A model generated the notes under the pieces. It worked only from the letters and a program-made list of their open reading frames with translations. It did not search any database and was not told the origin of the DNA. A DNA stretch of 64,000 nt from NCBI RefSeq assembly GCF_029633865.1, contig NC_079211.1, positions 144,387,998 to 144,451,997 of the forward strand. Reading direction: 5' to 3'. Positions 3,001 to 55,700 of the stretch are shown piece by piece; the stretch's first letter is position 1, and every line of letters starts with the position of its first letter. The position numbers were made by a program, and so were the translations under genes. This DNA comes from Lampris incognitus. Taxonomy: Eukaryota; Chordata; Actinopteri; Lampriformes; Lampridae.

Positions 3001-6000
3001 CCCCGCTGTCACACAGACCCATTTTTCCGTTGCTTTTTTTTCCCCCTCCTTTCAAGTTATTTTTAGTCCCTCGTTTATTTTAATTGCGAAATCGCTCTCG
3101 TATTTTCACGCCAGCTGGTATTAAAATGACAAGTACGCCTGTGTGCTCGTGTCAGTTTCCTGTTCGACCACCTGTTTTTAACGTCATCCTCTATTTTGGT
3201 CAGAGTACATCACCTTCCTCTCCCTGCCACTGAACGCCACGCAAGTGCGCGTTGTTAACAATGCGCCCGTCTTCACACATATCGGTAAGACCTATCGGCT
3301 TACAGGAGGTTCAGGTTTAGCGCATGGCGCGGGATCAGTGAGGCGAGTAACAGGAGTCGCGTTTGCTCTTCTCGCTCGCAGCTGTGATGGTCGGGGATCA
3401 GTACGTCGTGGCCGGGGATGGCGACATGGCGCTGAATGTGACCCACCCCTCCCTGCTGGACGACGGCCGGCTGGAGTACCGTCTCTTCCTGAGCCCTGAC
3501 TTTCTGCCCCGGATGGAGGAGCTGCTGCTAGCCGGACCGGTGCAACGGGAGATGCATATACAGGTCAGCAGAAACAGCCGGACCCCCCCTGGTCCAACGA
3601 TTACGGGCGGCACGGTGGCCCAGTGGTTACCACTGTTGCCTCGCAGCACGAAGGTCCTGGTTTCGGACCCCCGGGCCGTCCCGGGTCCCTTTCTGTGTGG
3701 AGTTGGCATGTTCTCCCCGTGTCTGCGTGGGTTTCCCCCGGGTGCTCCGATTTCCTCCCGCCATCAAAAAGACATGCATGTTAGGGTTAATGCTCCTGCC
3801 TGCGCCCCTGAGCAAGGCAGTGGTAAGAAGAACGGGAGTTGGTCCCCGGGCGCTGCAGCTGCCCACCGCTCCGATACAATAGGACGGGTTAAATGCGGAG
3901 GACAAATTCATCGTAACCAAACAACTGTACAGCGACATAGAGGGCTCACTTATCATCACACCAAAACTGGACATCGCTTGTCTCGTTAACTGTCACGCAC
4001 TTTGCACTCTTTCTACTGAGAGAAGAAATACATCAAAAAGCATCCATCCATCCATCTATTACCCAAACCGCTTATCCTGCTCTCAGGGTCGCGGGGACGC
4101 GGGAGCCCATCCCAGCAGTCACTGGGCGGCAGGCGGGGAGACACTCCGGACAGGCCGCCCGGCCATCACAGGGCCGTACCTAAAAGTATAAAAGGTGGAA
4201 TTCAGATTTCCTACTTCCCTTTTAAAAAGAGCCCCCCCTTCTTCAGCTTCTCTCAGCCAGTCTTTTTTTTTTCTTCCCGATGCTCCTGATATCATCAATT
4301 GCTCAATTGCGAGCACACTTAACCACTAGTAAGTTCAAACCGCACCGAAAGTGAATGGGCGAAATAGGGCTGAGGCACGACTACATGGCTAAAAACATGC
4401 TTAACTCTACAACCGTCCATCTCATATACTCTCTTTAGGTTCTGGAAGATGCTATGTCCAAATACACTCAAGCGCCATGAATCAACGAGGCCACACGAGT
4501 CTCAACCTTACACGTTTTCAGACGCTTGCTTCTAAAAACTGCTCGCTTGGCCGTGTTGGTTGGACAGGGCGCAATCAAAATCAACATTTCAACGACTTTA
4601 TGTGAGACGCGATGGCGTCACCTGTGCAATAAGAGAGAATAAAAGCTGATTTTCTATGCATATAAGTTATATGTCAGTTGCATTTAATGAAAATTATCTA
4701 GTATTTAGAGGAACGAGCAAAATCTAGACAGCTAATAGAAAGCTAATTCTGTAAAACTGGCATGGTTTGTGATTTTGTGAAATTTGCCCATCAACCCCTC
4801 TATACTCACTTTACACCTACTGTGCTTTGAGCGCCCCTAGTGGCCACATTCGGAGTGGCGTACCTTTTGGTGAGGCTTAATTACAACCCCTTGCACTTGT
4901 CACTCAAATGCCAGCTCATGAATATTAATGAGGACTAGACTACTGCTGCACAGTTCTTGAGACAGCCGAGAGCAGTTCTGGATAAATAAATGAAAAATAT
5001 TTGTCCTTTGCAAATTGAAAAAAATATTCCTGAATCTTTTATTATGCCATGTACAAGGTTTGAAGACGTGAAAAGTGAAATCTGACGACTGGTTTTGGTC
5101 TGACGTTGATATGACGTGATGTGCCGTAATATAATGTCAGAGTCACACCACCGTGTATTCCTCCTTGCAGGTTTATCGTAAATATGGGAAAGAGTATGGA
5201 GGGAAAACCGACCCCAACATCAGCTACCAGTACTATGTACCCGCCAGTGATACTGACCTGACAGAAGCCGAACCCAGGAGTAAATGGGTCGCCCTTGCAA
5301 CACCCTGCTCCGTCACGTGTGGCCCAGGTAAGACGCAGGCTGCACAGAAACACACAAAAATAACAACAAAACGGTTTAATTTCACTGCCAAAAGATGTCC
5401 CTATCAACCCAATGTCATAAATAAACACCCTCCTTGTTCATTTCAGGGGAATACCTTTGGATTTAAGTTCCCGAACAAATAGTATTCGAAGCAAAGTATG
5501 CAGGAGGAGGGGGGGGGGTAATAGTTGACACTGTTAATGATTACTGTATGCTTTTATCCCAGACATGATAATCTATCTTAAGGACATCGCTGTATTCAGT
5601 ATAGACAAGCTTATTTTGTCTGAGTTCTGCTGGCTGCAGAGGTTATCACAGCAGCGCCTTCTTAAAACAAACCCCGAGCTCACGTTGTACCGAGTAAGCA
5701 GAAAGAGCGTATAAACTAAAGCAGACCGTCGGGACACCTTGTTTACACATGCGGCTCCCTCGTAATATAAGCTTCTCAACTGCAACGTAAGCCGTACGGA
5801 GGGATGTGTGGTGTTATATACTGTATTTCAATCCTCCAAAACTTCTCACTATCTAGAGCAGCCTCCATTTCTGAGCATGTAAGGGAGGGATCTTGCCCCA
5901 AATCACCCCCCCCCCACCTCCGCAATGGAGAAAATTTCCCCAAAATAAAAATAAAAATTTTCAATTTGAAAGGAAATTCTTATTGGACCAACGATTATGG

Positions 6001-9000: not shown

Positions 9001-12000
9001 CCTTATGTAATAAGGTCAGAATAAAAAGGTCCATTTTTTGAGGGAAAAAAGATCCACCCCTTTTACTAGACTGGCTACACCCATGTATTAACGCAGACAC
9101 AGTGGAAAATAATGATCAACGACAATTATAACAAGGTATATTTTTGCCCACCAGATGGCGGTCTAAGCAAGGAGTCTGCAGCGTGACATGTGGCGGGGGG
9201 GTGGCTAACAGAGTGCTGTACTGCGCTCGAGAGGTGGAAGAGGAAGAGGTGGTGGTGGAGGATGCAGAGTGCAATGCCTTCCCAAAACCCACAGCTGTGG
9301 TCACGTGTAACACCAACAGCTGCCCAGCAAGGTTCTGTAAATCTCTCACACACTTACACACACACACACACCCACACACACACACACACGGACATAATAC
9401 CATACTGTCAATGTAATCTGTCCAGGTGGAAGGTTTTGAGAACATCGCCCTGCTCGGTGTCCTGTGACCTGGGGGTAGCCCAGAGGACAGTGTCCTGCGT
9501 CCAATTCATCCATGGCAAGGAATGTGTGGTGCCTGAGGTAAAATGCCATACAGCCACCAAACCCACCACCACCGTGCCCTGCCTGGTCCAGGTCTGCACC
9601 TTCAGATGGGAGGTGAAAGAGTGGAGCCAGGTAAGGTTGGCAGAGTTGGGGAGAAACAATGCCAGATGAAATATGAACGGCCATGTTGAGTGTCTCTGAC
9701 GTACCCAAAACTGAACCTGCTTGTATACAAAATCTCCCTCTGGTAGACTATTATCTTTATCCTCTGCAAAAGTCAAAAGCTCTAGATCCAGACTTTTCTC
9801 CCGCCTGGACCCAAAAGGGTGAAACAAACTGCCGGCCTCCACCAGGGCTACTGACTTCCTCGCTTCTTTCGAGAAAAGCCTAGAAATGATGCTCTTCAAC
9901 ATCTACCTTGATCCTTAAATGGTTTCCGGTGGCAGTTTGCAATGACTGCTACGAACTGGTGCCGGCTGTTATTATTGTACCCTTTCATACTTAAACATCT
10001 TCATTACCGCTGTCCATGAGCCCTTTTCTACTTGCACTTGCCCTTTTTATGAGCTCATGGTAGAATTTCTTAATTTTTGCTGTTTTGTGGCAATATTAAT
10101 CTATTTTGTATTTCGACCTCCCTATTTCTCTCTCTTGATGACCCAAGGCGAATTAAACACATTCAACATGACATGCACTATATATATATACACTACCGTT
10201 CAAAAGTTTGGGATCACCCAAACAATTTTGTGTTTTCCATGAAAAGTCACACTTATTCACCACCATATGTTGTGAAATGAATAGAAAATAGAGTCAAGAC
10301 ATTGACAAGGTTAGAAATAATGATTTGTATTTGAAATAAGATTTTTTTTACATCAAACTTTGCTTTCGTCAAAGAATCCTCCATTTGCAGCAATTACAGC
10401 ATTGCAGACCTTTGGCATTCTAGCTGTTAATTTGTTGAGGTAATCTGGAGAAATTGCACCCCACGCTTCCAGAAGCAGCTCCCACAAGTTGGATTGGTTG
10501 GATGGGCACTTCTTGCGTACCATACGGTCAAGCTGCTCCCACAACAGCTCAATGGGGTTCAGATCTGGTGACTGCGCTGGCCACTCCATTACCGATAGAA
10601 TACCAGCTGCCTGCTTCTGCTCTAAATAGTTCTTGCACAATTTGGAGGTGTGTTTAGGGTCATTGTCCTGTTGTAGGATGAAATTGGCTCCAATCAAGCG
10701 CTGTCCACTGGGTATGGCATGGCGTTGCAAAATGGAGTGATAGCCTTCCTTATTCAGAATCCCTTTTACCCTGTACAAATCTCCCACCTTACCAGCACCA
10801 AAGCAACCCCAGACCATCACATTACCTCCACCATGCTTAACAGATGGCGTCAGGCATTCTTCCAGCATCTTTTCATTTGTTCTGCGTCTCACAAACGTTC
10901 TTCTTTGTGATCCAAACACCTCAAACTTGGATTCATCTGTCCAAAACACTTTTTTCCAGTCTTCCTCTGTCCAATGTCTGTGTTCTTTTGCCCATCTTAA
11001 TCTTTTTCTTTTATTGGTCAGTCTCAGATATGGCTTTTTCTTTGCCACTCTGCCCTGAAGCCCAGAATCCCGCAGCCGCCTCTTCACTGTAGATGTTGAC
11101 ACTGGTGTTTTGCGGGTACTATTTAATGAAGATGCCAGTTGGGGACCTGTGAGGCGTCTGTTTCTCAAACTAGAGACTCTAATGTACTTATCTTCTTGCT
11201 CAGTTGTGCAACGCGGCCTCCCACTTCTTTTTCTACTCTGGTTAGAGCCTGTTTGTGCTGTCCTCTGAAGGGAGTAGTACACACCGGTGTAGGAAATCTT
11301 CAATTTCTTAGCAATTTCTCGCATGGAATAGCCTTCATTTCTAAGAACAAGAATAGACTGTCGAGTTTCAGATGAAAGTTCTCTTTTTCTGGCCATTTTG
11401 AGCGTTTAATTGACCCCACAAATGTGATGCTCCAGAAACTCAATCTGCTCAAAGGAAGGTCAGTTTTGTAGCTTCTGTAACGAGCTAAACTGTTTTCAGA
11501 TGTGTGAACATGATTGCACAAGGGTTTTCTAATCATCAATTAGCCTTCTGAGCCAATGAGCAAACACATTGTACCATTAGAACACTGGAGTGATAGTTGC
11601 TGAAATGGGCCTCTATACACCTATGTAGATATTGCACCAAAAACCAGACATTTGCAGCTAGAATAGTCATTTACCACATTAGCAATGTATAGAGTGTATT
11701 TCTTTAAAGTTAAGACTAGTTTAAAGTTATCTTCATTGAACAGTACAGTGCTTTTCCTTCAAAAATATGGACATTTCAATGTGATCCCAAACTTTTGAAC
11801 GGTAGTGTATATATATATCATAACTTTAATTCATATATTCATAATATGTTTATATTTTTTATATTTTATTTGTAATTCATAACTAATTCATTTTCCCCTA
11901 CATCTAAGACAGATGTGGGAAAATTAATCAGAGTTATGAATTAAAGTTATGAATGAAATTATGAATTAAAGTTATCATTGATTATAATTAACGTTTTTAT

Positions 12001-12106: not shown

Positions 12107-15100
12107 ATATATGTATATATATATATATACACACATATATATATACTATATGTATATGTATACACACATATATATATATGTATATGTGTATATATATACA
12201 TACACACACACACACACACATATATATATAAAACTTTGTGATACCAGTTAGTCAGCTACCTACTGACTCTTTTGTAAGTTGCTTTGGATAAGAGTATTTG
12301 CTAAATGGGTAAATGCAAAAGTTTTGTTAAAGAGAGATTTTGTTTTGTTTTGTTTTGTTTGCCAGTGTTCGGTGTCCTGCGGCTATGGGATCCAGTCCCG
12401 ACCTGTGTCCTGCAGGGGGCCCTCTAATCCCGAGCCTCTCAGCCCACTGCTCTGCATGCACATGCCCAAGCCCATCACCATTAAAGGCTGCTACACGGGC
12501 GGCTGCAGAGACACGCAGCCCACCCTAGCCCACGCCCTTCCGCCGGACACCGCAGTGGAGGCCACTCGCAACAAACAGGACCCCCTCATGCCCCCCACCC
12601 TGAACCGGACAGAGACGCCAACGTACCGCACATCCGCGCTGCCCCCTGCTCCGACAGAACCCATCCAGACCTCACAGACGTCCACATCCGTACCCACCTC
12701 GCCCCCTAAAACCAGTTAGTTTGCCGGGGCCATCGCTCATAACGGTAGAGGCTAGTCCCCAGCGATGCAGAGGACGGTCAACTGAGCATGCGCAAGTACT
12801 CGTCGCCTCCGTCGTTTGGGTAGGTTAGGGTTGGGGCGGGGTTAGGGTTAAAGTTAGCCAATCGGACGCAGAGTAGGGGCGGGTCTTCCTTAAGAATCCT
12901 AGCGGGGCGTGCGGATGCGACGGCGGAGGCATTTCGCGCATGCCCAGTTGACCGTTCTCTGCGTCGACAGGAACTACCCTCCACCACCCCATTCGTAATA
13001 GCCGAGAGGCGGTCACGCCTCCCCGGGGCTTCCCGCCACGGCTCGCCATGTTTAACCCCCACGTGTTTACCTTCCAGGCGTGTGTGGGCAGCTTCTGCTG
13101 GACGAGCGGGGCGTTGTGGACTTGAGAAACGTGGCTAGCCGCTGCACCGTGTCCATAGGCCGACCCCTGAACGAGGTCATACACGTCACGGTGAAGTCCA
13201 GTTCCTTGGACTGTAGAACAAGTAAGTGTGTGACGCGAGAGAGTGAGTGAGTGACAGCCGCGTGTGTTCGGCGTCGCCCGGCTGGTACGTAACCTTGTGC
13301 TTTGGTGTGGGCAGGGGAGAACGTGGCGTTCTTCGACCGGCTGGTGTTCCTGAGGAAGTGCGAGCAGGCGGAAGGGACCGAGTTCACCAGCAGGACCAAC
13401 GTCCTGTTGGTGCGTCAGGGTCTCCTGACCCCCGGGAACGGGGTTCTGCTCACGTACCATTCCCAGGAGAACAACAAGAAGAGTCATCAGGGTAAGACTA
13501 CGGCTACCAAATTTGCGATGTTTTTTTTTTCTTTCCCCTCGTAAATTTGCGGGGTTTTTTTTCTCGTAAACTCTCCACTTTAATCTCAGGAATTGTGAGT
13601 TTTTTCTCGGAATATTACCCCTCCCCCCTCCTCCCCATCCCCCCAGTGTCGTGTATAAGTCACAACAGTGTGACTGTAGTCTAGGACCCTGCAGCTTTAG
13701 GTTTTACGACAGCCGGTTTACGGCAGTCGGTTTACGGCAGTAGCGCAAGACGTGGTTGATACTGTAAACTACTAATAAGACAGTGGTTCTCGACCTTTTT
13801 GGGGTGCTGGACCCCCTGCGTATTTTTGATCTACCCTGAGGACCCCTCCACCTGATCTTGGGGGAGGGGGGTTGCAATTTGATAGAAACAGTAGAAACTG
13901 CATTTTAAATTGCATTATAGCATTTATTCACTATTTGGGGCAAAAATAAGAGCTTTCAGTTGTAACTTAGATATGGTTAACAAAACAGAATTCTTATGCA
14001 GTAACTTTCAGATATATGTAACAAAACAGAATATGTATTCAGTAACTTTCAGATATATGTAACAAAACAGAATATGTATTCAGTAACTTTCAGATGTATG
14101 TAACAACAGAATTTTTATGCAGTAACTTTTAACAATGCAAACGGGAGCGAGATCTCTTATTAAAATACAATAAATGACACTCGTGAAACAGATGTAATTA
14201 GAGAAAAAAGTCCTGTTACCCTTTATAGTTTAGGTAGATAAAGGTCTCAGTCACATTTGAGTAAAATAATCCTATTTCTATAAATGTCATAGGATCTTTT
14301 TTTTAAAGATATTTTATTTTCACGGACCCCTTGCAATTACACCACGGACCACTAGGGGTCCGCGGACCCCCGGTTGAGAAACACTGTAATAAGACCCGTT
14401 ATAACGGGTCTGACCCTTTAGCCGAGCGGTTAGTGATGTCGCCTTGTGGTGCAGTACACCCCGTATCGAATCCCGCACCGGGCAAGAAAATAACCTGCAC
14501 ACTACTAGGCTGTACGTGTATATGACGTTTACTGTGGCAGCAATAAACACAGTTTGATTCAAAGTCGTGGTCCGAGTTTTGCTGGACGCAACACCCAGAT
14601 GCAGAAAAAAAAATATATCTACGTTTCTAAAAATATCATCCGTCCATCCATTATCTGAACCGCTTATCCTGCTCTCAGGGTCTTTGCAGATTATTGCAAT
14701 AGTAATCTGAAATAACTGAAATATCATTGCATAATGAAAAGCAATGAAAAGCCTTTGCAAAATACTTCTGCTAGATATAGATGAATTGAACGTGAGTTGA
14801 CCTCATCTTGCAAGTGCATGATAGCTAAATTAAGGGAGTTTATCTGTCCCCAGGGTAGAGTTTCAAGAAAAAAACTCTATAAAAAAAAACTAAAAACAAA
14901 TTTGTATTTGTTAGAGTTAGGTTGTGTTAGCTGTGGGAAAAAAAAAGATTTGTGTCTCAATGATGACATTTTAATACTTTTTCAGTATGTTGAAAATTAA
15001 AACGTGCCAGAGTTTCACCGTTTCTGGGCTCGTCCCCAACCCAGACTTTATAACTTCCCCTCCATAAATAAAGTAATAAAAACGGTTAAATTCATTCAAG

Positions 15101-31767: not shown

Positions 31768-31824
<57 letters not shown>

Positions 31825-31835
31825 GACAGACAGAA

Positions 31836-31890
<55 letters not shown>

Positions 31891-31891
31891 A

Positions 31892-31922
<31 letters not shown>

Positions 31923-32040
31923 GACAGACAAACAGAGAGACAGCGAGAGACAGACACAGAGAGAGAGAGAGAGAGGAGAGACAGACAGACAGAGAGACAG
32001 TGAGAGACAGACACAGAAAGAGAGAAAGAAAGACAGAGAG
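31766..32040. repeat. (GACA)n grading into GAGA/GACA mixed repeat
   Basis: Pure GACA occupies about 31766-31820 and then alternates with GAGAGA. Together with the GATA array 1 kb away this gives both components of classical Bkm-type GATA/GACA repeats. Confidence 0.95.
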
Positions 32041-32117
32041 AACTGATTTTTTAAAATAAGTCTTTATTGAACAAAAAAATCAAAAAAACAGACTTGAAAT
32101 CTTTTTAACAATATAAA

Positions 32118-36300
<4,183 letters not shown>

Positions 36301-43744: not shown

Positions 43745-46700
43745 TTGGAAGAGTAACCTATATGAAGAGTAACCAGTATGACGAGTAACCCATATGAAGA
43801 GTAACCAGTATGAAGAGTAACCAGTATGAAAAGTAACATGTATGAAAAGTAACATGTATGAAGAGTAACCAGTATGAAGAGTAACCCGTATGAAGAGTAA
43901 CCAGTATGAAGTGTAACCCGTATGAAGAGTAACCCGTATGAAGAGTAACCAGTATGAAGAGTAATCCGTATGAAGAGTGACCAGTATGAAGAGTAACCAG
44001 TATGAAGAGTAACCCGTATGAAGAGTAACCAGTATGAAGAGTGACCAGTATGAAGTGTAACTCGTATGAAGAGTAACCAGTATGAAGCGTAACCCGTATG
44101 AAGAGTAACCCGTATGAAGAGTAACCAGTATGAAGCGTAACCCGTATGAAGAGTAACCAGTATGAAGAGTAACCAGTATGAAGAGTAACCAGTATGAAGC
44201 GTAACCTGTATGAAGAGTAACCAGTATGAAGAGTAACCCGTATGAAGCGTAACCCGTATGAAGAGTAACCAGTATGAAGAGTAACCCGTATGAAGAGTAA
44301 CCAGTATGAAGCGTAACCAGTATGAAGAGTAACCAGTATGAAGAGTAACCCGTATGAAGAGTAACCCGTATGAAGAGTAACCAGTATGAAGAGTAACCAG
44401 TATGAAGCGTAACCAGTATGAAGCGTAACCCGTATGAAGAGTAACCAGTATAAAGAGTAACCAGTATGAAGAGTAACCAGTATGAAGAGTAACCCGTATG
44501 AAGAGTAATCCGTATGAAGAGTAACCCGTATGAAGAGTAACCCGTATGAAGAGTAATCCGTATAAAGAGTAACCCGTATGAAGAGTAACCCGTATGAAGA
44601 GTAACCAGTATGAAGCGTAACCAGTATGAAGAGTAACCAGTATGAAGAGTAACCAGTATGAAGTGTAACCCGTATGAAGAGTAACCAGTATGAAGTGCAA
44701 CCCGTATGAAGAGTAACCAGTATGAAGCGTAACCAGTATGAAGAGTAACCAGTATGAAGAGTAACCAGTATGAAGAGTAACCCGTATGAAGAGTAACCAG
44801 TATGAAGAGTAACCAGTATGAAGAGTAACCAGTATGAAGCGTAACCCGTATGAAGAGTAACCAGTATGAAGCGTAACCCGTATGAAGAGTAACCAGTATG
44901 AAGAGTAACCCGTATGAAGAGTAACCAGTATGAAGCGTAACCAGTATGAAGAGTAACCAGTATGAAGAGTAACCAGTATAAAGAGTAACCCGTATGAAGA
45001 GTAACCTGTATGAAGAGTAACCCGTATGAAGAGTAACCCGTATGAAGAGTAACCAGTATGAAGAGTAACCCGTATGAAGAGTAACCCGTATGAAGAGTAA
45101 CCCGTATGAAGAGTAATCCGTATAAAGAGTAACCCGTATGAAGAGTAATCCGTATAAAGAGTAACCCATATGAAGAGTAACCAGTATGAAGAGTAACCAG
45201 TATAAAGAGTAACCAGTATGAAGTGTAACCCGTATGAAGAGTAACCAGTATGAAGTGTAACCCGTATGAAGAGTAACCAGTATGAAGCGTAACCAGTATG
45301 AAGAGTAACCAGTATGAAGAGTAACCCGTATGAAGAGTAACCCGTATGAAGAGTAATCCGTATGAAGAGTAACCCGTATAAAGAGTAACCCGTATGAAGA
45401 GTTACCCGTATGAAGAGTAACCCGTATGAAGAGTAACCAGTATGAAGAGTAACCAGTATAAAGAGTAACCAGTATGAAGCATAACCCGTATGAAGAGTAA
45501 CCAGTATGAAGCGTAACCCGTATGAAGAGTAACCCGTATGAAGAGTAACCCGTATGAAGAGTAACCCGTATGAAGCGTAACCAGTATGAAGCGTAACCAG
45601 TATGAAGAGTAACCCATATGAAGATTAACCCGTATGAAGAGTAACCCATATGAAGAGTAACCCGTATGAAGAGTAATCCGTATAAAGAGTAACCCGTATG
45701 AAGAGTAATCCGTATAAAGAGTAACCAGTATGAAGTGTAACCCGTATGAAGAGTAACCCGTATGAAGAGTAACCAGAATGAAGAGTAACCCGTATAAAGA
45801 GTAACCAGTATGAAGCGTAACCCGTATGAAGAGTAACCAGTATGAAGCGTAACCCGTATGAAGAGTAACCAGTATGAAGAGTAACCAGTATGAAGAGTAA
45901 CCCGTATGAAGAGTAACCAGTATGAAGCGTAACCAGTATGAAGAGTAACCAGTATGAAGAGTAACCAGTATAAAGAGTAACCCGTATGAAGAGTAACCTG
46001 TATGAAGAGTAACCAGTATGAAGCGTAACCCGTATGAAGAGTAACCAGTATGAAGAGTAACCCGTATGAAGAGTAACCCGTATGAAGCGTAACCAGTATG
46101 AAGAGTAACCAGTATGAAGAGTAACCCATATGAAGAGTAACCCGTATGAAGAGTAACCCATATGAAGAGTAACCCGTATGAAGAGTAATCCGTATAAAGA
46201 GTAACCCGTATGAAGAGTAATCCGTATAAAGAGTAACCCATATGAAGAGTAACCAGTATGAAGAGTAACCAGTATAAAGAGTAACCAGTATGAAGTGTAA
46301 CCCGTATGAAGAGTAACCAGTATGAAGTGTAACCCGTATGAAGAGTAACCAGTATGAAGCGTAACCAGTATGAAGAGTAACCAGTATGAAGAGTAACCCG
46401 TATGAAGAGTAACCCGTATGAAGAGTAATCCGTATGAAGAGTAACCCGTATAAAGAGTAACCCGTATGAAGAGTAACCCGTATGAAGAGTAACCCGTATG
46501 AAGAGTAACCAGTATGAAGAGTAACCAGTATAAAGAGTAACCAGTATGAAGCATAACCCGTATGAAGAGTAACCAGTATGAAGCGTAACCCGTATGAAGA
46601 GTAACCCGTATGAAGAGTAACCCGTATGAAGAGTAACCCGTATGAAGCGTAACCAGTATGAAGCGTAACCAGTATGAAGAGTAACCCATATGAAGAGTAA

Positions 46701-46922
46701 CCCGTATGAAGAGTAACCCATATGAAGAGTAACCCGTATGAAGAGTAATCCGTATAAAGAGTAACCCGTATGAAGAGTAATCCGTATAAAGAGTAACCAG
46801 TATGAAGTGTAACCCGTATGAAGAGTAACCCGTATGAAGAGTAACCAGAATGAAGAGTAACCCGTATAAAGAGTAACCAGTATGAAGCGTAACCCGTATG
46901 AAGAGTAACCAGTATGAAGTTA
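43745..46922. repeat. 3.2-kb minisatellite of a 16-bp unit
   Basis: About 198 tandem copies of AGTATGAAGAGTAACC, with (C/T)GTATGAAG(A/C/T)GTAA variants. The 16-bp unit reads through all three minus-strand frames without a stop, giving 16-residue repeats (LHTGYSSYWLLFILVT) over up to 866 codons; this is not a gene. A segment of at least 690 bp is duplicated at a spacing of 1,072 bp (67 units): for example, the rare GTAACCCATA variant at 45161 recurs at 46233, and AACCAGAATG at 45771 recurs at 46843. The array ends abruptly at GTTACCAGTATTACC. Confidence 0.97.
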
Positions 46923-49787: not shown

Positions 49788-52700
49788 TCAAGAACTCAGC
49801 GTGGGGTTTTTCTGGGGCCTGAAGCAGTCCCAGCCGGGCTTTGGGCTATATGTGTGTTCGGGGAGAAGGAAGTCTTTGAGTCTGTCTGGTAATGGCAGAG
49901 TTTTCACCTTATCTTCCAGTGGCCAGGGCTGTAAGGTGCTCCTTATGAACGCTCTGCATAGGAAGCGCAAAGCTGGAGGGCCTGCCTCTTGCTCCACCAC
50001 TCGGCTGTGGAGGTCCAGCAGCATTTGGGCATGGGGTTCCTCTCCAGGATGAGGCAGCTCCAGTCTGGAGGGCAGTGGCAGTGTGGTGAAGTTTACCTTG
50101 GCTAGGTCAACCAAGAGCTCAGCCTGCTCCACGAGCTCAAGGGCGTGGCTCCCATCAGTACACTGCTGCAGTGCTGTGCGGAGTCTGTGGAAAAGTAACC
50201 TGTAACCTGACCAGCAGGAGGCCCCATGGTAAGAGCAAACAAAAGCCGCACCGCTCTGGAGTAGCAGAACAGCCAGAGGGAACAGCAAGTCAAAGTACCC
50301 CAAACTGGTTTGTGTCAGGGAGGGCTCTCCATCCCCACTCAGACACACGCTGGGGTTAATACCATGGGCCAGCAATAGCTTGGTGGCTCTCAGGCAGAAG
50401 TGGCCAATCTCAGCAGCATCCTCCATGTTGGCCTCCAGGGCCTCCTGAATCAGAAACACCAGAGAGGACTCAGCTGTCTCCCCATCTATGGTAGTAGCTC
50501 GAATATCAGCACCTGTAAACAGAGAGGCTATATTATTGTAGAGATATAATGCAGAGATCTGGCGACTCTATAATCTTATTTCTTGAGTACCACAGAAGCA
50601 GCAAAATCTAAAGCCATAAACCACTGTGATGTGCTAATGACTCATATAGATTTAATTCTACCGTTTAAGATGTGGGCGTTCCATCCTTATTCTACTATTT
50701 TGACTTGGTAGTGGTAATATATACACTACCGTTCAAAAGTTTGGGATCACCCAAACAATTTTGTGTTTTCCATGAAAAGTCACACTTATTCACCACCATA
50801 TGTTGTGAAATGAATAGAAAATAGAGTCAAGACATTGACAAGGTTAGAAATAATGATTTGTATTTGAAATAAGATTTTTTTTACATCAAACTTTGCTTTC
50901 GTCAAAGAATCCTCCATTTGCAGCAATTACAGCATTGCAGACCTTTGGCATTCTAGCTGTTAATTTGTTGAGGTAATCTGGAGAAATTGCACCCCACGCT
51001 TCCAGAAGCAGCTCCCACAAGTTGGATTGGTTGGATGGGCACTTCTTTGAGCAGATTGAGTTTCTGGAGCATCACATTTGTGGGGTCAATTAAATGCTCA
51101 AAATGGCCAGAAAAAGAGAACTTTCATCTGAAACTCGACAGTCTATTCTTGTTCTTAGAAATGAAGGCTATTCCATGCGAGAAATTGCTAAGAAATTGAA
51201 GATTTCCTACACCGGTGTGTACTACTCCCTTCAGAGGACAGCACAAACAGGCTCTAACCAGAGTAGAAAAAGAAGTGGGAGGCCGCGTTGCACAACTGAG
51301 CAAGAAGATAAGTACATTAGAGTCTCTAGTTTGAGAAACAGACGCCTCACAGGTCCCCAACTGGCATCTTCATTAAATAGTACCTGTTAGAGCCTGTTTG
51401 TGCTGTCCTCTGAAGGGAGTAGTACACACCGGTGTAGGAAATCTTCAATTTCTTAGCAATTTCTCGCATGGAATAGCCTTCATTTCTAAGAACAAGAATA
51501 GACTGTCGAGTTTCAGATGAAAGTTCTCTTTTTCTGGCCATTTTGAGCGTTTAATTGACCCCACAAATGTGATGCTCCAGAAACTCAATCTGCTCAAAGA
51601 AGTGCCCATCCAACCAATCCAACTTGTGGGAGCTGCTTCTGGAAGCGTGGGGTGCAATTTCTCCAGATTACCTCAACAAATTAACAGCTAGAATGCCAAA
51701 GGTCTGCAATGCTGTAATTGCTGCAAATGGAGGATTCTTTAACGAAAGCAAAGTTTGATGTAAAAAAAATCTTATTTCAAATAAAAATCATTATTTCTAA
51801 CCTTGTCAATGTCTTGACTCTATTTTCTATTCATTTCACAGCATATGGTGGTGAATAAGTGTGACTTTTCATGGAAAACATGAAATTGTTTGGGTGATCC
51901 CAAACTTTTGAACGGTAGTGTATATATATATAATACTATATTTTTTCCTGCAGTCACACAAAGCCAGACTAAAATAACAGTGATTGTGGGAGGTGATGTA
52001 TGACGACTCCTTAGATAAAGACAGGGAAGATGAACGGAATAAAGCATTTCCCTGATTGTGACAACTGATGAAAATGCCAGTGGAACAAAGAGACTCAGAA
52101 TATTGTGTACAACTACACAACATAGCTTAAGGTCCTACATAACACCTAATGTCAGAACTCTTTCCCCCAAACAATCTTTGCTATTAATCAGCTGCTTCAT
52201 GTCTGAATAACTGGATTGGTTCTGCTCCATTTTCACACATTTTAGCCTGACAATTCCCAACATTGCACTTCTATGTCAACGTATAGACAAACGTGCATGT
52301 GTGCAATGAATATCCTGGATAGATTTGTTTTGCTGTGTTGATGGCTCGAAAGATTTCACAGCAACTTAAAGAAAAATTGGGTTAAATGAAGATGGAGATT
52401 TGCAGCTTAGTACCTCTCTCGAGCAGCAGTTGAATGTTCTCCGTGTTGTGCACCGTGAGTCCATCGCTGCTCGCCAAGGCATGGAGCAACGGTGTCTTTC
52501 CTTTGGAGATGAGGGAACAGACAGTCACAATTTTTACATTTTTGCACTTTTTAAGTTGTTTTTCAGCTTTTCAATAACATTGTCAAGTTGCGATTACCGT
52601 TTTTATCCTTTGCGTTTACGTCAGCTCCCAAGTCAAGCAGGGCGAACAAGCAGGGCAGTCTCTCGGACTCCTCACTGGCCAGATCCAAAGGACTGCTTTC

Positions 52701-55700
52701 ATGGATCTATATATAGGGAAAGAAAAAAAACTGGAATGATGCAAGTGGACATAACAAAAATACGAGAGAGGACATGAATATGTAAGGTGACCAAATTGGT
52801 CGGTGAGACTTACCCTGTCCCTTTTTTCAATGTCGGCCCCATGCCCCACCAGCAGCCTCACCATGCTCGGGCTGTTCCTCAGAACTGCTATGTGCAATGG
52901 ATTGTAATAAGACACTGGGTCTGAGGGATGAAAACAAATACATCAACACTGGTCGGTGACATTAGTAGTGACAAAATCCTGAAAGGATCCTTTTAATAAC
53001 ATGACGAAAGGGTTACAGAATAGCTGAGAATACATACATACATACATAGATAACAGTAAGCAGCAGATAACCATTTAACATATGTCCTTTCATAACCAGC
53101 TGTACTGAGGGGGTCAGGAGCTCATGCTGAAAAGGAAAACCCAGAACCCCATTTAAACATACACAGGCGAGGCCTTCACACACAACTGGACTGTGAGTCG
53201 AATAGACAAGGGAAAATACCCAATATAAATACCCAATTATATATACTCCCCAAAGTAATGGCAAGTGCAGAAGAGAGGTGAAGAAGAGAGTGCAGGCAGG
53301 GTGGAGTGTCAGGAGCGATGTGCGACAGAAGGGTACCAGCAAGAGTTAAAGGGAAGGTTTACAGGATGGTTGTGAGACCAGCTATGTTGTATGGTTTGGA
53401 GACAGTGGCACTGATGAAAAGACAGGAGACGGAGCTGGCAGAGTTGAAGATGCTAAGATTTTCAGTGGGAGTGATGAAGAAGGACAGGATTAGGAACGAG
53501 TATATTAGAGGGACAGCTCAGGTTGGACGGTTTGGAGACAAAGCAAGAGAGGCAAGAGTGAGTTGGTTTGGACATGTGTGGAGGAGAGATGCTGGGTATA
53601 CTGGGAGAAGGATGCTGAATATGGACCTGCCAGGCAAGAGGAAAAGAGGAAGGCCAAAGAGGAGGTTTATGGATGTGGTGAGGGAGGACATGCAGTTGGC
53701 TGGTGTGACAGAGGAAGATGCAGAGGACGGGAAGAAATGGAAATGGATGATCCGCTGTGGCGACCCCTACCGGGAGCAGCCAAAAGTAGTAGCAGTAGTA
53801 GTAGATATATATACATCCATCCATCATCATCATCCAAGCCGCTTATCCTACTTAGGGTCGCAGGAAGTATATATATATACACTACCGTTCAAAAGTTTGG
53901 GATCACCCAAACAATTTTGTGTTTTCCATGAAAAGTCACACTTATTCACCACCATATGTTGTGAAATGAATAGAAAATAGAGTCAAGACATTGACAAGGT
54001 TAGAAATAATGATTTGTATTTGAAATAAGATTTTTTTTACATCAAACTTTGCTTTCGTCAAAGAATCCTCCATTTGCAGCAATTACAGCATTGCAGACCT
54101 TTGGCATTCTAGCTGTTAATTTGTTGAGGTAATCTGGAGAAATTGCACCCCACGCTTCCAGAAGCAGCTCCCACAAGTTGGATTGGTTGGATGGGCACTT
54201 CTTTGAGCAGATTGAGTTTCTGGAGCATCACATTTGTGGGGTCAATTAAACGCTCAAAATGGCCAGAAAAAGAGAACTTTCATCTGAAACTCGACAGTCT
54301 ATTCTTGTTCTTAGAAATGAAGGCTATTCCATGCGAGAAATTGCTAAGAAATTGAAGATTTCCTACACCGGTGTGTACTACTCCCTTCAGAGGACAGCAC
54401 AAACAGGCTCTAACCAGAGTAGAAAAAGAAGTGGGAGGCCGCGTTGCACAACTGAGCAAGAAGATAAGTACATTAGAGTCTCTAGTTTGAGAAACAGACG
54501 CCTCACAGGTCCCCAACTGGCATCTTCATTAAATAGTACCTGTTAGAGCCTGTTTGTGCTGTCCTCTGAAGGGAGTAGTACACACCGGTGTAGGAAATCT
54601 TCAATTTCTTAGCAATTTCTCGCATGGAATAGCCTTCATTTCTAAGAACAAGAATAGACTGTCGAGTTTCAGATGAAAGTTCTCTTTTTCTGGCCATTTT
54701 GAGCGTTTAATTGACCCCACAAATGTGATGCTCCAGAAACTCAATCTGCTCAAAGAAGTGCCCATCCAACCAATCCAACTTGTGGGAGCTGCTTCTGGAA
54801 GCGTGGGGTGCAATTTCTCCAGATTACCTCAACAAATTAACAGCTAGAATGCCAAAGGTCTGCAATGCTGTAATTGCTGCAAATGGAGGATTCTTTGACG
54901 AAAGCAAAGTTTGATGTAAAAAAAATCTTATTTCAAATACAAATCATTATTTCTAACCTTGTCAATGTCTTGACTCTATTTTCTATTCATTTCACAACAT
55001 ATGGTGGTGAATAAGTGTGACTTTTCATGGAAAACACAAAATTGTTTGGGTGATCCCAAACTTTTGAACGGTAGTGTATACATACATATATATACACACA
55101 CATACATACATATATACATACATACATATATATACATACATACATATATATACATATAGTTCATATGTTCAGTTGTACCAAGTGCTAGTTTTTTGTGGAA
55201 ATGTATTTTCTGTTGTAAGTTATTGTATAAAAACACAACATTTCCATCATGGCAGAATTTAAAAGCGCAATTAAGTCAGAAACAAAAGACTTCTTATAAT
55301 AAAGAAAAATAAACGCCCATCTCAGGTTTTGATACTTCAAAAATATTTTTAGTTCAAACTGAAAATCACATATCTTCTGATCTTATGAGGACAAAGCCTA
55401 GCCACAGTAATAACCAGCATTTAAAATGAAAGCCTTTTTTTTGGGGGGGGGGATTTCCCCCCCTTTTCTCCCCAATTGTATCCGGCCAATTACCCCACTC
55501 TTCCAAGCTCCACCCCTCCGCCGATCCGGGGAGGGCTGCAGACTACCACATGGCTCCTCCGATACAGGTGGAGTCGCCAGCTGCTTCTTTTCACCTGACA
55601 GTGAGGAGTTTCACCAGGGCGACATAGTGCGGGGGAGGATCACGCTATTCCCCGTAGTTCCCTTTCCCCCCTGAACAGGCACCCCAACCGACCAGAGGAG

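Follow-up and report, generated by a model that had tools for sequence, protein, structure and literature searches.

Several described elements resemble the one that concerns us here, the snapback, a 1,197-bp palindrome of Tc1 sequence found twice in a 64,000-nucleotide stretch of the Lampris incognitus genome (contig NC_079211.1, positions 144,387,998 to 144,451,997 of the forward strand), hereafter called the window. In the mariner elements Rpmar49 and Rpmar17 of Rhodnius prolixus, as in the snapback, the 5' part is replaced by the inverted 3' part (PMC4678618). The portions of that paper at hand report Rpmar49 as amplified, with 13 independent sequences, and analyse 227 rearranged copies of Rpmar17, in which later breakpoints cluster around the first junction, a pattern 'puzzling' to the authors (PMC4678618). 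Both are short, non-autonomous mariner elements in tens to hundreds of copies, whereas the snapback is a DD38E Tc1 element in thousands. Neither a near-complete palindrome with a short loop nor a 3'/3' form with an intact transposase is described in those portions (PMC4678618). Mu killer of maize, like the snapback, arose from part of a transposase gene duplicated in inverted orientation and has one terminal repeat region twice (PMC3440606); it silences its parent. The snapback is present in thousands of copies. The zebrafish Angel element (Izsvak 1999, in PMC12628747) is another teleost inverted-repeat element that folds on itself, and the part of the account available ascribes its spread to strand folding (PMC12628747). 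As for the Drosophila Foldback elements (FB/Galileo), they are presented in the consulted part of their description as having long, internally repetitive terminal inverted repeats (TIRs) and, in Galileo, a P-superfamily transposase (PMC3573991). We considered this class for the snapback and rejected it, the snapback arms being joined pieces of a Tc1 parent. Angel elements are short, and we know of no transposase parent for them. Finally, Dreyfus and Emmons reportedly described in 1991 a transposon-related palindromic repeat of Caenorhabditis elegans, which we take to be Tc6, a Tc1-related element. Tc6 is present in tens of copies; it and the snapback are both transposon-related palindromes, a likeness of descriptions, not of sequences.

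The parent of the snapback has a known counterpart. Intruder (IT), in the parts of its description at hand, is a DD38E family with elements of 1.5-1.7 kb, a transposase of 341-379 amino acids, a TA target and short or long TIRs, and its invasions are recent, with ray-finned fish among the hosts (PMC7731502). The Lampris parent fits this by description alone, with a spacing of 38 residues, a length of 1,617/1,618 bp, a transposase of 347 amino acids and a TA target. The Intruder main text mentions neither palindromes nor miniature inverted-repeat transposable elements (MITEs), non-autonomous elements or hairpins, and no snapback is found in the parts consulted (PMC7731502). A DD38E snapback was likewise not found in the search listings of an open-access library, subscription papers and Repbase being outside that search. 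End replacement (Rpmar49/17), palindromic transposon-related repeats (Tc6) and self-folding teleost repeats (Angel) are known; what looks new is that the origin can be traced, that an intermediate exists and that the snapback has taken over the family.

We consider it probable, at roughly 80%, that the snapback derives from a DD38E (Intruder-type) Tc1 transposon as a palindromic, non-autonomous form of high copy number, that the transposase of the intact parent mobilises it in trans, and that it arose through two abortive gap repairs. Except for a single base where the loop joins the right arm, it is composed wholly of parent pieces, in the order inverted 3' end (324 bp), parent positions ~350-693, positions 568 back to 350 inverted, and the 3' end again. 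Both termini correspond to the parent 3' end, and the parent 5' end beyond the 27 bp common to both ends is absent. The two consensus sequences agree save at the junctions and at one right-arm site. No complete transposase is encoded; the ends and the internal sequence come from an autonomous-looking element of the same genome. Given its length, we did not file the snapback as a classic MITE. The same arm junction, with a 3-base CTT overlap, is present in each arm, and an element that carried this junction once therefore most likely preceded the palindrome.

Snapback copy 1 lies at 50724..51920 on the plus strand, with its loop in plus orientation and TA at 50722-50723 and 51921-51922. Its left arm (50724..51258, plus strand, 535 bp) starts with the reverse-complemented parent 3' end up to ~51047 and goes on with the parent 5' untranslated region (UTR) and the transposase N-terminus. 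The loop (51259..51385, plus strand, 127 bp) continues the N-terminal coding sequence and has the snapback-specific junction at its end, and the right arm (51386..51920, minus strand, 535 bp) is complementary to the left arm at 529/535 positions. Copy 2 (53880..55076, plus strand, 1,197 bp; TA at 53878-53879 and 55077-55078) comprises a left arm (53880..54414, plus strand, 535 bp; internal arm junction at ~54201-54203), a 127-bp loop identical to that of copy 1 (54415..54541, plus strand) and a right arm complementary to the left one at 535/535 positions (54542..55076, minus strand). The copies are identical to each other at 1191/1197 positions. A preliminary description of two TA-flanked 1,197-bp elements with 535-bp arms and a 127-bp loop was borne out by this comparison of arms, loops and flanks, and the junction that it had placed near 51045 is real and lies at 51045-51047. 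A repeat search of the window returned the same arms, with a few additional bp running into the flanking TA repeats. As a single DNA strand, copy 2 is predicted to fold into one long hairpin (-696 kcal/mol). That the pair might be one duplicated segment was ruled out, since the flanks outside the TA repeats look unrelated.

The same window holds a full-length, TA-flanked parent of 1,617 bp with 27-bp TIRs (10191..11807, minus strand). Its intact transposase open reading frame (ORF; 10353..11396, minus strand) encodes 347 amino acids with HTH_Tnp_Tc3_2 and DDE_3 domains, and 38 residues separate D244 and E283 in the triad D154, D244, E283, so the DD38E label given earlier was right for the parent transposase. 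The 324 bp that make up both snapback ends correspond to the parent 3' end (10191..10514, minus strand), and the inner arm and the loop to its 5' UTR and transposase start (11115..11458, minus strand). Complete parents, namely the window copy and 28 of the parent-junction loci L031-L060, measure 1,617/1,618 bp with TA on both sides in 29/29 cases, and they diverge by 0.30% from their own consensus. The 347-amino-acid ORF is present in 20 of the 30 loci L031-L060, one of these being an intermediate (see below). A search for an additional copy of the 27-bp terminal repeat within either parent end gave nothing above shuffled controls. By triad spacing, length, transposase size and TA target, the parent is a DD38E (Intruder-type) Tc1, and to judge from their sequences parent and snapback are both young.

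Across the 1.48-Gb genome, we counted matches to 37-base patterns on both strands, with up to 2 mismatches. The snapback loop junction was found at 5,750 places (2,856 and 2,894 on the two strands), the parent sequence at the corresponding point at 3,095, the arm junction at 11,413, the parent 5' end at 2,997 and the 3' end at 14,745; backward-read control patterns gave 0 matches for each of the five, and the recurrence of the loop junction goes well past what chance would produce. Snapbacks thus outnumber parents (~3,000 copies) by about 2:1. If each snapback contributes two 3' ends, each parent-junction element one and each intermediate a further one, 2 x 5,750 + 3,095 + ~170 = 14,765 ends are expected versus the 14,745 counted. 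The 3'-end and junction counts fit these three forms, and no other large class of derivatives is needed. The hairpin derivative appears to have spread recently, and with thousands of insertions it now exceeds its parent in number. The preliminary description had proposed a non-autonomous family of TA-flanked 1.2-kb copies that moved as a unit with one parental end at both termini; all of this is upheld, on ~5,750 copies instead of two. Its view that two intact copies so close together are notable did not survive, since 5,750 copies in 1.48 Gb lead one to expect ~97 pairs within 4.35 kb by chance, and the pairing in the window is ordinary.

We examined 76 snapbacks, namely the window pair and loci L001-L030, L067-L070 and L071-L110, all but the window pair being located within the initial 22.4 Mb of contig C1. 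Because exact junction matches served to pick 70 of them (L001-L030 and L071-L110), divergence is slightly understated. The expectation that such long palindromes would seldom persist was not borne out: 72/76 keep both ends, although 7/76 have large deletions or truncations. Among those 72, 68 have TA on both sides and 56 are exactly 1,197 bp long. Leaving out the 4 copies without both ends and 3 shortened ones, 69 could be aligned, and they differ from their consensus by a mean of 0.24% substitutions. The two arms of a copy differ by 0.53% on average, with no difference in 7/69. A seeming second structural class of copies turned out to be merely copies read on the opposite strand. Many insertions lie within TA repeats, the 16 tested flanking bases being only A and T in 17/72 copies. 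At L009 (945-1012), a snapback and the 5' end of a parent copy are only 14 bp apart, with nothing but a TA repeat between them.

A third form stands between parent and snapback in structure; neither it nor the parent in the window had figured in the preliminary description of the palindromes. In L040, L064 and L065, an inverted 3' end is followed by parent positions 350-1617, the two being joined by the same arm junction as in the snapback, and all three have the 347-amino-acid transposase ORF. L040 and L065 are 1,586 bp long with TA on both sides; L064, drawn from the arm-junction list, runs beyond the fetched stretch on one side. These three share with the 69 snapbacks of the alignment the replacement of the 5' part by the inverted 3' part. 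Of the first 91 places listed with an exact parent junction (L031-L060, L065 and 60 probes, L111-L170), 5 are of this form (L040, L065, L119, L131 and L148), which extrapolates to ~170 copies (95% range 56-382); L064 is outside the 91. The probes yielded three of them (L119, L131 and L148), known from 60 bases at the junction only, and the others were counted as parents, including L118, which has the parent interior and a 5' end at the parental distance. L040, L064 and L065 have 3-6 substitutions each relative to a model sequence built from snapback and parent, compared with a mean of 4.8 for parents relative to their own consensus. The 3'/3' element is, from its structure, a probable intermediate between parent and snapback. 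L062, at first a candidate for a deleted intermediate, carries the loop junction typical of the snapback and was identified as a snapback that has lost part of an arm. L063, an arm-junction copy with ~30 bp left past the junction and Ns in the locus, was left unclassified and enters no count.

In the scheme that we propose, a parent copy was excised, and a broken end would have primed repair off the sister copy at the wrong one of its two terminal repeats, as the 27-bp repeat common to both ends would allow. After 324 bp of the 3' end had been copied, this tract would have been joined to the other repair tract at the CTT overlap. The product would be a ~1,586-bp 3'/3' element with the 5' end swapped for a second 3' end and the transposase ORF intact, a form of which the genome does contain copies. 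Upon excision of this element, both broken ends would have been extended inward along one and the same side of the template, since the 3'/3' ends were now 324-bp inverted repeats, over 662 and 535 bp, respectively. The two tracts would then have been joined with one extra base, the 127-bp difference becoming the loop. The snapback does retain two 3' ends and lies at TA sites like those of the parent, and it has multiplied to ~5,750 copies. Its identical ends, TA targets and recency point to mobilisation in trans by the parent transposase. By analogy, two 3' ends may be favoured for transposition. Mos1 and Mboumar-9 transpose better in vitro with two identical preferred ends than with their natural pair, and the same is stated for Sleeping Beauty (PMC4505599). 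Likewise, Intruder donors whose TIRs have the consensus sequence, which is that of the 3' TIR, are reported to be more active and to give more colonies (PMC7731502).

The snapback copies also bear signs of folding. Changes mirrored in both arms of one copy number 5, in 4/69 copies, versus 0.5 expected (permutation P ~1e-4); in L012, one of these 4, right-arm variants at sites 39, 137 and 180 are also in the left arm. At site 39 and its mirror 1159, 47/69 copies have T on the left and C on the right, 18 have T in both arms and 4 have C in both (L006, L008, L012 and L015). As T is found at this site in 29/29 parents, the right-arm C is derived, and we infer that it was partly spread or lost through correction or CpG decay. 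Flipping of the loop by recombination between the arms, tested through site 39, was seen in 0/69 copies. As for large deletions or truncations (n=8, the 7 among the 76 plus L062), 6/8 break within an arm, 8-20 bp from its loop-side end, at consensus 516-528 or its mirror (~2e-7 if breakpoints were uniform, for a zone picked post hoc). Those of L075 and L101 lie outside this zone. At the joints of the 4 internal deletions among these six, the two sides overlap by 2-4 bases. The sampling pattern needs the first 21 bases of the right arm, and equal deletions there would be missed. A genome-wide breakpoint scan gave 7 and 8 matches at two loop-side positions, 1 and 0 at loop controls and 3 and 8 at arm controls; the last 8 all have the same two bases, as might come from a one-base loss in a T run. 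Taken raw, this arm control is as high as the test positions; alone, the scan is no proof of clustering, to which it lends weak support. Two Fisher tests of the breakpoints (P 0.039 and 0.026) predate the later scans and assumed site numbers, and we do not rely on them. Together, the mirrored mutations and loop-side deletions suggest that the palindrome folds in vivo. Our reading of the deletions is that repair synthesis would stall when the new strand, past one arm and the loop, enters the second arm and its tip folds back. A structure-specific nuclease that cuts where the loop begins would explain them equally well.

A number of points weigh against the account given here. We infer the gap-repair steps from the junctions alone, and the loop junction has one untemplated extra base and no microhomology. 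Template switching at forks, or deletion between neighbouring copies, could yield the same products. The intermediate is ~34 times rarer than the snapback despite having the same ends, and intermediates could descend from snapbacks repaired off a parent copy. Polishing artefacts could mimic arm-to-arm correction. Furthermore, piggyBat constructs with LE/LE or RE/RE ends gave no transposition in the part of that study at hand (PMC11707139), so end symmetry is no general advantage. The possession of two 3' ends is therefore not a sufficient reason for the snapback's success, since the 3'/3' intermediate has remained rare.

The palindrome might have formed in a single step, through template switching in replication or hairpin priming at a fork, the 3'/3' elements being later products of snapbacks repaired from parents. 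Palindromes are described, in the excerpts consulted, as stalling replication and being recombinogenic (PMC7999016), the intermediates are rare (5/91), and within a single copy one arm seems to serve as template for correcting the other, so that repair off inverted templates may occur. Nevertheless, we find this origin somewhat unlikely. The same junction in both arms would demand a prior single-junction element or a second inversion, and intermediates with 3-6 substitutions versus the parental mean of 4.8 are not clearly younger. It is highly improbable that the palindromes or their mirrored mutations are artefacts of assembly or polishing. Reads mapping equally to both arms could transfer bases in polishing, but a single loop junction recurs in 5,750 copies, a number on which we reject assembly as the source of the architecture, and TA sites flank 68/72 of the copies examined. 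Most copies retain arm differences, and the right-arm variants 1018 and 1061 are arm-specific in 11/12 copies carrying both. As for spread through strand folding and extrachromosomal amplification instead of cut-and-paste transposition, the snapback strand is predicted to fold on itself almost completely, and the Angel model describes such a course for a self-folding teleost repeat in the part of the account available (PMC12628747). The precise ends with TA on both sides in 68/72 snapbacks, as in 29/29 complete parents, make it scarcely plausible here.

The rarity of the intermediate means that smaller size, the fold or luck must also have contributed to the success of the snapback. Shorter length (1.2 kb versus 1.6 kb for the parent) and a lucky founding time might suffice, with end identity and palindromy irrelevant. 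The intermediate, with the same ends and a near-parental length, stayed rare, and we regard this explanation as possible, if doubtful. No ordinary shortened 5'/3' derivative was seen to be amplified, 5' ends (2,997) being about as numerous as parent junctions (3,095), although a derivative keeping both sites would escape this comparison. Alternatively, the fold itself might have driven the success, a suggestion that we make tentatively and think rather unlikely. An extruded or single-stranded palindrome would bring its identical ends next to each other, already paired for the transposase, and arms repaired from each other would keep both ends functional; the unfolded 3'/3' form did not take off.

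Regarding the surroundings, the starts of the two window copies are separated by 3.2 kb and lie within or close to a gene on the minus strand that has an ankyrin repeat and a SOCS box. The ORFs at 49788-50459 and 52616-52915 (minus strand), with SOCS box and ankyrin repeat and with snapback copy 1 between them, are probably an ASB-family gene. Directly before copy 2, 53306-53830 resembles the tail of a long interspersed nuclear element (LINE) reverse transcriptase, as which we take its motif ...RCGDP; a Pfam search with the translation of this segment gave no match. Elsewhere in the window there are a 3.2-kb tandem array (43748-46919; 16-bp unit, ~198 copies, 91% matches) and a 4.5-kb AG-rich simple repeat (31770-36293).

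The parent, probable intermediate and product of the birth of a palindromic transposon are all young in one genome, which makes the steps testable. The snapback provides a natural counterpart to the laboratory findings that two identical preferred ends transpose best. Since a single animal genome here contains long palindromes by the several thousand, all nearly identical, palindrome stability in the germ line becomes measurable. The loop-side deletions may also bear on the unexplained clustering of Rpmar17 breakpoints in Rhodnius.

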